Assembly (NCBI RefSeq): GCF_029893085.1
Contig: NZ_JARXWI010000003.1
Span: 62,001 to 126,000, forward strand
Direction: 5' to 3'
DNA: 64,000 nucleotides
Origin: Parabacteroides sp. PFB2-10
GTDB taxonomy: Bacteria > Bacteroidota > Bacteroidia > Bacteroidales > Tannerellaceae
Position numbers and translations under genes: made by a program. Of this stretch, positions 13,267-52,130 are shown piece after piece. Under the pieces are notes generated by a model. The model saw only the letters and a list, made by a program, of their open reading frames with translations, was not told the origin of the DNA and searched no databases. The first letter of the stretch is position 1. Every line of letters begins with the position of its first letter.

Positions 13267-13331
13267 TAAATCCGTTACCGAATCTTTTACAAAGGCGAAA
13301 AACGGTTTTGACATTTCATGGATATGTGAAT

Positions 13332-13506
13332 AAATGTTAAACCACCTATTTTCGACGAAACCCCGAATTTACGATTTGTAATTTCGGCAGGACTTTGCGC
13401 GCAAAAAAGCGGGACTTCGGAGACAAACTCCCGGGAGAAACATTTTTTAACGTATGGATTTGTAAGCAAAACGGTCGTTTTACTTACAATCGATATTTTA
13501 ACATTT
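13332..13506 (+). repeat. Structured intergenic repeat, copy 1 (MITE-like)
   Basis: This 175-bp element is bounded by 10-bp terminal inverted repeats (AAATGTTAAA at 13332-13341, TTTAACATTT at 13497-13506). It aligns over its full length with copy 2 at 27166-27340 on the opposite strand. Internal features are a 45-bp core (13411-13455) shared at 44 of 45 positions with the third copy, the palindrome CTCCCGGGAG, and a 14-bp hairpin (13460-13489) with one mismatch. No target-site duplication is obvious and it has no coding capacity. Confidence 0.85.
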
Positions 13507-13644
13507 CAGTATGAATTGTTCTTAGGGAGCGGTTTTTTTATGTTATTTCTGAAAGTTCGCATATCCTGTTATGGAATGCTTAGAGAATATACTCTTCTAA
13601 TTATTCCCTGTTTTTCTTGTATCTCTTGTGGTAACTGGAAAGGT

Positions 13645-14310
13645 TATACAGCCGCTATCTCTTTTAGAGCAACCGAAGCATTGCTGAACTATATGGAAGC
13701 ACAGTATCTGTTGAGCAAAAATGTCTCTTCCGGGAAAATTCTGGAGTATTGGAGAGCTATCCGTGAAGCTGCTGGTTTTGCAGGAAATGCTGTCGATCCT
13801 TTGGTCACTATTGCCGCTACAGATATGACAAAAGAAACATTAGACTGGGGTGCGTATAGTGGAGGGCAACTTCTTAGCGATCCTGCCTTATTTAATATTC
13901 GTCGCGAACGTCGTTGCGAATTGATGGGTGAAGGTCGTAGATGGATGGATTTAACACGTTGGCGTTCGCTTGATCAATTAAAAACAAGCCCTTACCATGT
14001 GGAAGGCATTCACCTGTGGGGTACTCCTTTTGAAGAGCACTATCAATTTACGGCGAATCAATATAATGGAAGCAACTCTGCTGTTGTTTCAAGTCCTCAG
14101 TTGAGTGAATACATTCGCCCTCACGAAGTAAATATGACTTCAGGAAATCTTGTGAGAGACGGATATACCTGGACGATGGCTCATTATTTGCAGCCGCTTC
14201 CTATCAAACAATTCTTATTGACTTCGTCTGATCATGAATCAGTAGAATTGTCACCGCTATATCAAAATCCTTATTGGCCTACGGAAGCCAATTTGCCAGC
14301 AGAGAAATAA
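13645..14310 (+). pseudogene. 5'-truncated RagB/SusD outer-membrane lipoprotein
   Basis: The open frame from about 13645 encodes the C-terminal part of a SusD-family glycan-binding lipoprotein. The recognisable signatures are SFRATEALLNYMEAQ, a YWRAIREAAGF segment, FNIRRERRCELMGEGRR and WMDLTRWRSLDQL, ending with QNPYWP. Full-length SusD proteins are about 500-650 residues and start with a lipobox; here the first ~300 or more residues are absent. The upstream in-frame sequence (13516-13644) is not SusD-like and opens only with a TTG. No susC precedes it. The truncation point lies about 140 bases after repeat copy 1. It is most likely a decayed polysaccharide-utilisation remnant. Confidence 0.85.
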
Positions 14311-14576: not shown

Positions 14577-14587
14577 CAGCCGAATAG

Positions 14588-14665
14588 ACAGGGGTGCTTG
14601 TGAAAAATTCACAGGCTGAGATTATACCCATAGAACCTGAAGCGGGTAATGCCGTCGTAGGGAAA
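14588..14665 (+). ncRNA. TPP riboswitch (THI element)
   Basis: The conserved THI-box blocks are in order: ACAGGGGTGCTT (14588-14599), CTGAGATTATACCC (about 14616-14629), GAACCTGAAGCGGGTAATGCC (about 14633-14653) and CGTAGGGAA near 14656-14664. The helix-forming segments for pyrimidine and pyrophosphate recognition are intact. It lies 97 bases before the TonB receptor ATG and controls a thiamine uptake/activation operon. A hairpin at 14669-14691 (ATGAAG with CTTCAT) follows and could be part of the expression platform. No U-run is present there, so translational control is more likely than termination. Confidence 0.95.
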
Positions 14666-14762
14666 AGAATGAAGTGCCGGCCGGGCTTCATGGTATATCC
14701 TTCCAAAAACAACACTCCTCTTATTCATTTGATTCGTTTCACTTAAAAAAGAGCAGAAAAAA

Positions 14763-16991
14763 ATGAAAAGAGTTTTATCTATGATCGCCGTGGTTGTGCT
14801 GGCGAGTTGTATGTCCGGATACGCTATAGATCCGGTTGATTCCTTGAAAATTGCTAAAGATATCTCGCTGGACGAGGTGATGGTCACGGCTACCCGCGCG
14901 ACCAAAGAGACACCCGTTGCCTATAGCGAACTATCGCAGCAGGAGCTGTCGCGTCGCAACGACGGACAGGGCATTCCTTACCTGATCGCTACCTCACCCT
15001 CCGTGATTATGACTTCCGATGCCGGCACAGGCATTGGCTATTCCGGATTCCGTATCCGTGGTACGGATGCAAACCGTATCAATATTACGGTCAACGGGGT
15101 GCCGCTGAACGATGCCGAATCGCACGGCGTGTTCTGGGTAAATATGCCCGACTTTGCCTCGTCGGTCGATAATATCCAGATCCAGCGCGGAGCAGGCACC
15201 TCGACCAACGGAGCAGCGGCTTTTGGTGCTACGGTGGCCATGCAGACGCAAAAGGCCTCGTTGAAGCCCTACGCCGAGTACTCGCTGTCGGCAGGTTCGT
15301 TTGGCACACTCAAGCATACCGTGGAAGGGGGAACGGGGCTATTATATGATCGCTTTGTGATCGACGCCCGCTACTCCGATATCCGCAGCGACGGGTTTAT
15401 CGACCGGGCCGAGGCCAAGATGAGTTCCTATTTCCTTTCGGTCTCCTACTATGCCGACAACTCCCTGATCCGGTTCCAGACCTTCGGCAGTAGCGAGACG
15501 ACCTACCAGGCATGGAACGGGGTGCCCTCCGGGATGCTTACTACCGACAGAACATACAATCCTTGCGGAGAATATGAAGAGGATGGGCAAACGAAGTATT
15601 ACGACAACCAGACGGATAACTACTGGCAGCAGCATTATCACCTGATTGCCAACCACCGGATGGGTGATTATTGGAATATGAATGTCACACTCCACTATAC
15701 ACCGGGCGAGGGCTATTATGAAGACTATAAGGCCGGGGCGAAATTCAGTAGCTACAAACTGCCGACTTTCACCGATTCCGAAGGGAAAGAGGTAAAGAAG
15801 AGCGACCTGGTGCGCCGTAAATGGCTGGAAAGTGATTTCTACGGTGGGATATTCGGGATTAATTACCTGAATACCAACCTGCATGCCACCCTGGGTGGCG
15901 GGATCAACCGCTTCGTATGCGACCACTTCGGGCGGGTGATATGGATGAAAACCGCTCAGAACCTGCCTCAGCCCGATTATGAATACTACCGCAACCGGGG
16001 TGATAAGGTCGACTATAATGTGTATGTGAAAGCGAATTACCGGTTAAATCAGACATTGCACGGCTATCTCGACCTGCAATACCGCGGCATTGATTACGCG
16101 ATCGACGGGAGCGATGACGTAGCAGGCGACAATGTGCATATCGACAAACACTGGGATTTCTTTAACCCGAAGGTGGGGTTGAACTACCAAAAGGGCGGAC
16201 ATAATGCCTTTGCCTCGTTTGCCATTGCCAACCGGGAGCCCAACCGCGATAACTTCACCGAAGCGGGACCGAACGAACATCCTACGCACGAAACGTTGTA
16301 TGACTACGAACTGGGTTATAGCTATGCGCATCCACGCTTCAACGTGGGAGTGAACCTCTACTATATGGATTACAACAATCAGTTGATCCTGACCGGAAAG
16401 ATCAGCGAGATCGGGGAAGCCCTGACCTCAAATATCAAAGACAGCTACCGGGCAGGGATCGAACTCACAGTCGGCGCCAAAATAACCGATTGGCTGAGTT
16501 GGAACGGAAATATGACATGGAGCCGGAATAAAATCTATAACTTTACGGAGGTGATGGAAAACTTTAATACAGTGGGTTACGACTGGGTGCCGGTACCGGG
16601 ACAGGAGGTGATCGAGAATAACCTGGGAACAACGGATATCGCCTTTTCGCCTGCTACGATTGCCAATAGCATATTCGATTTCAATTGGAAGAAATTCTCC
16701 GCCAGCTTTACCTCTCAATATGTGGGACGGCAATACCTGGATAACACCTCCGCCAAGAGCCGGTCGGTCGATCCCTATTTTGTGAATAGCCTGCGGGTGG
16801 GTTACACCTTTACTCCTTCATTTATGAAAGAGATTGCATTGGACCTGACGATCAATAACCTGTTCAACGAGAAGTATGAAACCAATGGTTGGGTCTATTC
16901 GGCTATGGTCGATGGCGAACGCTATACGGAAGACGGATTATTTACTCAGGCGGGAACCCATGCGATGGCGCGTGTAACGTTTAAATTCTAA
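14763..16991 (+). CDS. TonB-dependent thiamine receptor (outer membrane)
   Basis: This 742-residue protein has a signal peptide and then a SLDEVMVTATR TonB-box/plug boundary. The plug domain (to about residue 165) includes GTDANRINITVNGVPLND and VDNIQIQRGAGTSTNGAAAF. A beta-barrel follows, ending in an aromatic C-terminal residue (VTFKF). The TPP riboswitch in its leader and the downstream pnuT and TPK genes indicate thiamine or thiamine-phosphate import, as described for the equivalent locus in Bacteroides thetaiotaomicron. Energy would come from a TonB-ExbB-ExbD complex such as that at 45.6-47.5 kb. The pnuT gene begins 2 bases after the stop. Confidence 0.93.
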   Translation: MKRVLSMIAVVVLASCMSGYAIDPVDSLKIAKDISLDEVMVTATRATKETPVAYSELSQQELSRRNDGQGIPYLIATSPSVIMTSDAGTGIGYSGFRIRGTDANRINITVNGVPLNDAESHGVFWVNMPDFASSVDNIQIQRGAGTSTNGAAAFGATVAMQTQKASLKPYAEYSLSAGSFGTLKHTVEGGTGLLYDRFVIDARYSDIRSDGFIDRAEAKMSSYFLSVSYYADNSLIRFQTFGSSETTYQAWNGVPSGMLTTDRTYNPCGEYEEDGQTKYYDNQTDNYWQQHYHLIANHRMGDYWNMNVTLHYTPGEGYYEDYKAGAKFSSYKLPTFTDSEGKEVKKSDLVRRKWLESDFYGGIFGINYLNTNLHATLGGGINRFVCDHFGRVIWMKTAQNLPQPDYEYYRNRGDKVDYNVYVKANYRLNQTLHGYLDLQYRGIDYAIDGSDDVAGDNVHIDKHWDFFNPKVGLNYQKGGHNAFASFAIANREPNRDNFTEAGPNEHPTHETLYDYELGYSYAHPRFNVGVNLYYMDYNNQLILTGKISEIGEALTSNIKDSYRAGIELTVGAKITDWLSWNGNMTWSRNKIYNFTEVMENFNTVGYDWVPVPGQEVIENNLGTTDIAFSPATIANSIFDFNWKKFSASFTSQYVGRQYLDNTSAKSRSVDPYFVNSLRVGYTFTPSFMKEIALDLTINNLFNEKYETNGWVYSAMVDGERYTEDGLFTQAGTHAMARVTFKF

Positions 16992-27165: not shown

Positions 27166-27340
27166 AAATGTTAAAATATCAATTGTAAGCAAAACGGTCG
27201 TTTTGCTTACAATTCCATACGTTAAAAAGTGTTTCTCCCGGGAGTTTGTCTCCAAAGTCCCGCTTTTTTGCGCGCAAACTCCCGCTAAAATATCAAATTG
27301 ATAGTTGGGACTATCAAAAGAAATAGGAGTTTTAACATCT
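27166..27340 (-). repeat. Structured intergenic repeat, copy 2 (MITE-like)
   Basis: This is the full-length homologue of copy 1 in reverse orientation and of equal length. Terminal inverted repeats are ATGTTAAAA and TTTTAACAT (27168-27176, 27330-27338). A perfect 16-bp hairpin, AATTGTAAGCAAAACG with its complement (27181-27196, 27199-27214) and a two-base centre, is better preserved than in copy 1. The 45-bp core and the CTCCCGGGAG and TTTGCGCGCAAA palindromes are present. It lies 60 bases after the GH51 stop. Confidence 0.87.
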
Positions 27341-51954: not shown

Positions 51955-51984
51955 ATCTTTGGTTTCTTTATTTTGTGTTTCAAT

Positions 51985-52130
51985 CTCCAATTTGCATTTT
52001 GTCAAAATCGCGGGAGATTTTTTCCAAAATCCCGGGACTTTGGAGACAAACTCCCGGGAGAAACATTTTTTAACGTATCATTTTGTAAAGTAAAATGGCC
52101 TTTTTGCTTACACTTTGCTTTTTCGCATCA
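51985..52130 (+). repeat. Structured intergenic repeat, copy 3 (diverged)
   Basis: The 45-bp core (52034-52078) matches copies 1 and 2 at 44 of 45 positions, including CTCCCGGGAG. The hairpin downstream (TTGTAAAGTAAAATGG, then TTTTTGCTTACA) is degenerate, and the terminal inverted repeats are not recognisable. It lies between the nadK relic and the hypD promoter. Confidence 0.75.

Follow-up and report, generated by a model that had tools for sequence, protein, structure and literature searches.

What is the 175-bp non-coding segment that occurs twice, in opposite orientations, in the window (i.e., the whole stretch of 64,000 nucleotides from Parabacteroides sp. PFB2-10 that was analysed), and does it move? 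A preliminary description had proposed a pair of elements of equal size, MITE-like or corresponding to a mobile structured RNA or terminator, with matching terminal inverted repeats (TIRs), a hairpin of 14-16 bp and no coding capacity. The pair is real: copies 1 and 2 have 175 bp each and align over their whole length without gap, 146/175 positions being identical. They are however members of a genome-wide family, and a third copy is also found in the window. The features are the following:

13324-13506, + strand: copy 1, subfamily A, i.e., TGTRAAC-type lead (13324-13331) plus the 175-bp element (13332-13506); nhmmer 202.4 bits, G000:C3:75324-75506
13332-13341, + strand: copy 1, 5' TIR AAATGTTAAA, subfamily A only
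13388-13409, 13410-13431 and 13432-13453, + strand: copy 1, three tandem 22-nt units, from the 22-nt periodicity, the last continuing into the TTTTTTAACGT tail
13460-13489, + strand: copy 1, 3' hairpin TTGTAAG...CTTACAA, one mismatch
13497-13506, + strand: copy 1, 3' TIR TTTAACATTT
13588-14310, + strand: SusD/RagB gene remnant, 5' part missing, 81 bp past copy 1; a neighbour, outside the element
27166-27340, - strand: copy 2, subfamily A; nhmmer 174.5 bits
27181-27214, - strand: copy 2, 3' hairpin, 15 pairs as folded
27219-27284, - strand: copy 2, three 22-nt units, from sequence and periodicity
51981-52124, + strand: copy 3, diverged subfamily B, whole element; nhmmer 92.5 bits
52011-52032, 52033-52054 and 52055-52076, + strand: copy 3, 22-nt units

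Copy 1 starts with AAATGTTAAA and finishes with TTTAACATTT; copy 2 starts with AGATGTTAAA and finishes with TTTAACATTT. Matching TIRs are a property of subfamily A, whereas the other subfamilies have different ends. The 3' hairpin has 15 pairs in copy 2, and in copy 1 it folds as 7+5 pairs flanking one mismatch. The ends must also be displaced: the conserved sequence starts ~8 nt further upstream (TGTRAAC type), and a degenerate extension of ~35 nt past the 3' end is, by eye, common to many copies. No ORF >600 nt spans any of the 123 copies tested (4 of the 127 copies, with low scores, were omitted). Near copy 1, the SusD-like frame matches only the final 240 of the 681 residues of a 70%-identical gene of the sister species (G004), which may be a paralogue. 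Gene-truncation scars were rejected as a general feature of the copies (3/92 vs. 8/102 controls). A TPP riboswitch (57.1 bits) is localized at 14580-14680 of the window, upstream of ORF 14763-16991, which resembles a TonB-dependent receptor.

The preliminary description had left it to a genome-wide search to separate a dispersed family from one segmental duplication. A 24-nt core of copy 1, allowing up to 3 mismatches, has 130 matches (69 forward, 61 reverse) in the 3,687,546 bp (36 contigs) of the genome, and its reversed control pattern has 0; the family thus lies far beyond chance. With an nhmmer model built from 90 copies, 47 copies are found at E<1e-8 in contigs C2 and C3 (695,432 bp), which hold 25 of the 130 core matches. 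Scaling leads to an estimate of ~244-250 copies per genome, diverged subfamilies included (~249 by length, ~244 by the core-match ratio). The flanks of the copies are unlike each other, save for other shared repeats, thus one segmental duplication fails to explain the copies.

Seven copies (L006, L023, L046, L049, L050, L131 and L132) have a further common repeat of the GATCTTCAA...TTGAAGAT type downstream of the element, so that several distinct repeats follow one another in some intergenic regions. Solitary 3' halves occur at C2:179293-179345 and C3:311443-311492, each head to head with a full copy in opposite orientation. A 29-bp AT-rich stretch at L010:2714-2742, which is matched many times in congener G001 (most of the 54 matches obtained there with the L010 query), is perhaps another dispersed repeat.

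The shared anatomy consists of three tandem 22-nt units and a tail of the TTTTTAACGTAT type (AACGTAT), to which a 3' hairpin is added in the two close species. The core tail after the third unit is close to TTTTTTAACGTATC. Subfamily A is characterized by a TIR of ~10 nt, the TGTRAAC-type lead, a variable 5' part and a conserved core, and 70 of its 94 copies with both ends found have exactly 175 bp. Subfamilies B and C and the copies of the sister species keep the core and differ from subfamily A by their ends (by eye). Divergence among 90 subfamily-A copies is 28% over the first 55 columns and 9.7% over the last 130, and it must be noticed that these copies were picked via the 24-nt core match, the conservation of the core being partly built in. 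The 22-nt period is obtained with z 20.6 in this genome (22 copies), 14.0 in the sister species (20 copies) and 18.4 in other genomes (14 copies, i.e., eight from genus g14 and six from named Parabacteroides records), z scores that were taken against base shuffles and are inflated by the relatedness of the sequences. It is the sole period above z 3 in the last group and the strongest among several in the other two. In the core we thus read three units in tandem, with the tail behind them.

By blastn, copy 1 is present in 2 of 60 genomes, i.e., this genome and the sister species, whose DNA identity is about 89-90% (89% in alignable blocks) and which holds 38 copies in 1.58 Mb, forming their own subfamily. 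When a sequence model is run over 123 genomes of the taxonomic family, these two are the only ones with strong matches, and six more are matched weakly (25-31 bits). By eye, the architecture is recognized in four of these six, which belong to another genus of the family (g14), and G011 is without it. In the four g14 genomes the tail pattern, one mismatch allowed, has 41, 16, 7 and 7 matches (0, 0, 0 and 1 for the reversed controls). Among the matches listed in named records, six of ten loci (P. goldsteinii, P. faecis and a Parabacteroides MAG) have the architecture and the remaining four look like unrelated short-pattern matches. Among 393 genomes drawn from the order, this genome alone was matched, with strict filters that miss weak matches. 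No match to the element was found in three congeners searched, nor to copy 1 in plasmid and phage collections; viral contigs contain 2 exact tail-pattern matches. The titles and abstract openings of the open-licence literature searched disclosed no such repeat in Parabacteroides, and Bacteroides, Parabacteroides, Porphyromonas and Bacteroidetes are all unnamed in PMC2267715. In the collections and literature searched, the repeat family thus has no name.

Are the copies related to changes of gene order? Fifteen of 127 unique copies have both 1.4-kb flanks in the 1.58-Mb sample of the sister species, a usable match being missing on one or both sides for the other 112. Twelve of the fifteen lie at breakpoints and three are colinear (four in a looser listing of testable sites); the three are one shared copy (flanks 97-99% identical), one clean empty site (G000:C3:147068) and one site with a 2.5-kb gap. 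Under the same criteria, 34 of 203 element-free control sites are colinear and 2 are broken (Fisher p=2.2e-7 vs. elements), these controls being intergenic sites of C2 and C3 only, with 27 of the 34 colinear ones at gaps of 60-150 bp. Length-matched controls make the result weaker: at 150 bp or more, 7 are colinear and 2 broken (p=0.010 vs. 3 and 12 for the elements), and at 300 bp or more, 4 and 0 (p=0.009). An earlier and stricter test in C2 and C3 compared 3 element sites (1 colinear, 2 broken) with controls (54 and 5; p=0.03). At two junctions checked, the flanks are non-adjacent in congener G001 too, thus these joins are probably particular to the present genome, whether they arose by rearrangement or by misjoining. 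A copy of the sister species lies within 1.2 kb at 16 of 67 matched flank ends (5.8% expected), and 6 of the 12 broken sites have such a nearby copy at a flank end. Nevertheless, element orientation relative to the flank agrees at only 1 of 8 non-shared ends with a nearby element in the sister species (read by hand); this counts against simple recombination between resident copies, which should preserve orientation. In these data, the evidence that the family is tied to chromosome rearrangement is suggestive to strong.

The association with breakpoints might be an artefact of draft assembly at short repeats. The genome is in 36 contigs, and a copy is found at 500 bp or less from at least 8 of their 72 ends (C4, C11, C13, C20, C31 at both ends, C6 and C12), which hints at difficulties in assembling these places; PMC5771137 provides a precedent of repeats causing misassembly in Porphyromonas gingivalis. 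However, it would be unusual for a repeat so short, and so variable between copies (28% in the 5' part), to be misjoined in most cases, and the elements of the sister species are enriched at the same flank ends; such an artefact is unlikely. It is very unlikely that the family consists of structured RNAs or transcription terminators, spread through their usefulness at gene ends. Folded singly, copies are indeed more stable than their mononucleotide shuffles (z -2.6, -5.2 and -3.4), the 3' hairpin is present, and in tandem gene pairs subfamily A alone is antisense in 29 cases vs. 14 sense (p=0.03, uncorrected). On the contrary, RNAalifold gives 5 pairs and -0.46 kcal/mol for 42 diverse copies, i.e., essentially no common structure in an alignment that omits the variable 5' part of subfamily A, and the scan of covarying column pairs reveals subfamily effects and no stacked helix. 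Rfam yields nothing at the gathering score and, once the threshold is relaxed, only an miRNA hit of chance level (E 0.9); neither terminator nor promoter patterns are found in the region of copy 1, the only one searched. The 118 copies placed between two ORFs comprise 45 divergent, 16 convergent, 22 tandem sense and 35 tandem antisense, the last two not differing clearly (p=0.11). For the 43 of 47 copies of C2 and C3 that could be assigned, observed and length-based expected numbers are 6 vs. 5.2 (convergent), 23 vs. 24.0 (tandem) and 14 vs. 13.8 (divergent); placement is proportional to intergenic length rather than tracking gene ends, and length thus explains the excess of divergent sites in these contigs. 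The RNA or terminator half of the preliminary description was not sustained.

The MITE-like half fares better, in part. The family is short, non-coding, multicopy and intergenic, with species-specific subfamilies and the empty site cited above; but TIRs are present in subfamily A and absent or different elsewhere (by eye), and no target-site duplication (TSD) was found in 94 subfamily-A copies (offsets -16..+3 and -4..+45, words of 2-8 nt; in the top-scoring rows, words of 4 nt or more match in at most 4/94). None is seen at the empty site either, which could instead reflect a deletion in the sister species. In 2.37 Mb of two genomes, neither an autonomous partner with the same ends nor a gene between element halves was found. 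Most of the listed solitary 3' halves are due to the hairpin of a full copy matching itself on the reverse strand, and the sole row with a distant 5' half, considered as an autonomous candidate, was rejected for the same reason. A derivative of HUH (Y1) transposons, i.e., an IS200/IS605-type MITE or a REPIN moved by a RAYT, would agree with the absence of TSD and with a hairpin near the 3' end. A target motif could be represented by the TGTRAAC that is conserved immediately 5' of subfamily A, two of the three Y1_Tnp genes of the genome have a diverged copy at a distance of about 1 kb or less, and several B-type copies adjoin REP-like palindromes. Yet the palindromes that flank the three Y1 genes are, by eye, other than those of the element. 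Strand bias from lagging-strand transposition is typical of IS200/IS605; here no bias vs. GC skew was found (Fisher p=1.0 and 0.29), the value of the half-genome strand test of G084 was reached by 126 of 300 shuffles, and this counts against an IS200/IS605 derivative. Moreover, IS200/IS605 and REPIN ends are not known to feature three 22-nt direct repeats. An HUH origin is unlikely. The REP-like palindromes (GCTTTACGC...CTAAGCGA type; e.g., at the flanks of G000:C3:147068 and L129) are also found away from copies and were rejected as a fixed part of the unit. Finally, the 3 x 22-nt array might be a selected, chromosome-wide site for a DNA-organising or recombination protein, and no parasite. 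Other Parabacteroides retain the period and the tail with altered unit sequences, the last 130 columns diverge less than the first 55 in the core-selected set, and placement is intergenic and by length. Against this, the copy number varies widely between relatives, three congeners gave no match, and only one position is shared among the 15 that could be compared with the sister species; this reading has a very low probability.

With what known system can the family be compared? The closest in style is BrickBuilt of P. gingivalis, a species of the same order as this genome. According to PMC4596501, BrickBuilt is a MITE of strain ATCC 33277 with 19 elements, a variable repeat number, IS-like TIRs, and TSDs at three of the four copies having both TIRs. 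Both are intergenic and non-coding, with internal tandem repeats between a distinct leader and tail and assembly gaps at their sites. The BrickBuilt repeats have 23 nt vs. 22 nt here, and the unit sequence is unlike the quoted consensus (by eye); membership was rejected on these two grounds. Furthermore, the present family is far more numerous, with three units wherever copies were read, a TIR in one subfamily, and no TSD found. The transposases MuA and TnsB of Tn7 bind arrays of 22-bp sites in series. The putative units described here would resemble such arrays, with the differences that no TSD, no gene between element halves and no linked transposase were found. REP/REPIN elements are not known to have TSDs, and none was found here. 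They are also of high copy number, intergenic and palindromic, and are associated with RAYT transposases (PMC3733652; see also PMC2817692 and PMC3116915). REPs are palindromes of 20-40 bp with GTAG/CGTC tags, whereas the present element has about 175 bp, is built on three 22-nt units in direct orientation and could not be linked to any of the three Y1 genes; membership was rejected from the element length and from the other palindromes beside these genes. Prokaryotic MITEs are described in a review (PMC10969869) as short, intergenic, multicopy and hotspots of homologous recombination; here there is no TSD, no general TIR and no partner found.

The conclusions are that: (i) it is well supported that the family has spread, in view of the dispersed copies, their differing flanks, the species-specific subfamilies, one empty site, the constant anatomy and the length-proportional placement; (ii) it is not best read as a canonical MITE, REPIN or IS200/IS605 derivative, one defining test of the MITE type and one of the REP type having each failed; (iii) its members are probably non-autonomous elements of MITE/REP-like type, non-coding, intergenic and present in high copy number, which spread and are linked to rearrangement. 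As a mechanism, a sequence-specific protein acting in trans would bind the array of 22-nt units and the end motifs and would move the element, target duplication being absent; the resident copies would then serve as recombination substrates by which the chromosome is rearranged. The precise version, in which the genus-wide 3 x 22-nt array is the recognition site of this candidate protein, spreading the element without target duplication and driving rearrangement, is an unlikely proposal. Were it true, most copies in one species would mark junctions formed since the split from the sister species, and the family would represent a new kind of recombination-linked interspersed repeat. If the link with rearrangement holds, a high-copy repeat with a constant three-unit anatomy would be a concrete agent, open to testing, by which sister species of Parabacteroides-like bacteria come to differ in gene order; in practice, the family also calls for caution when genomes of this group are assembled or compared for gene order.
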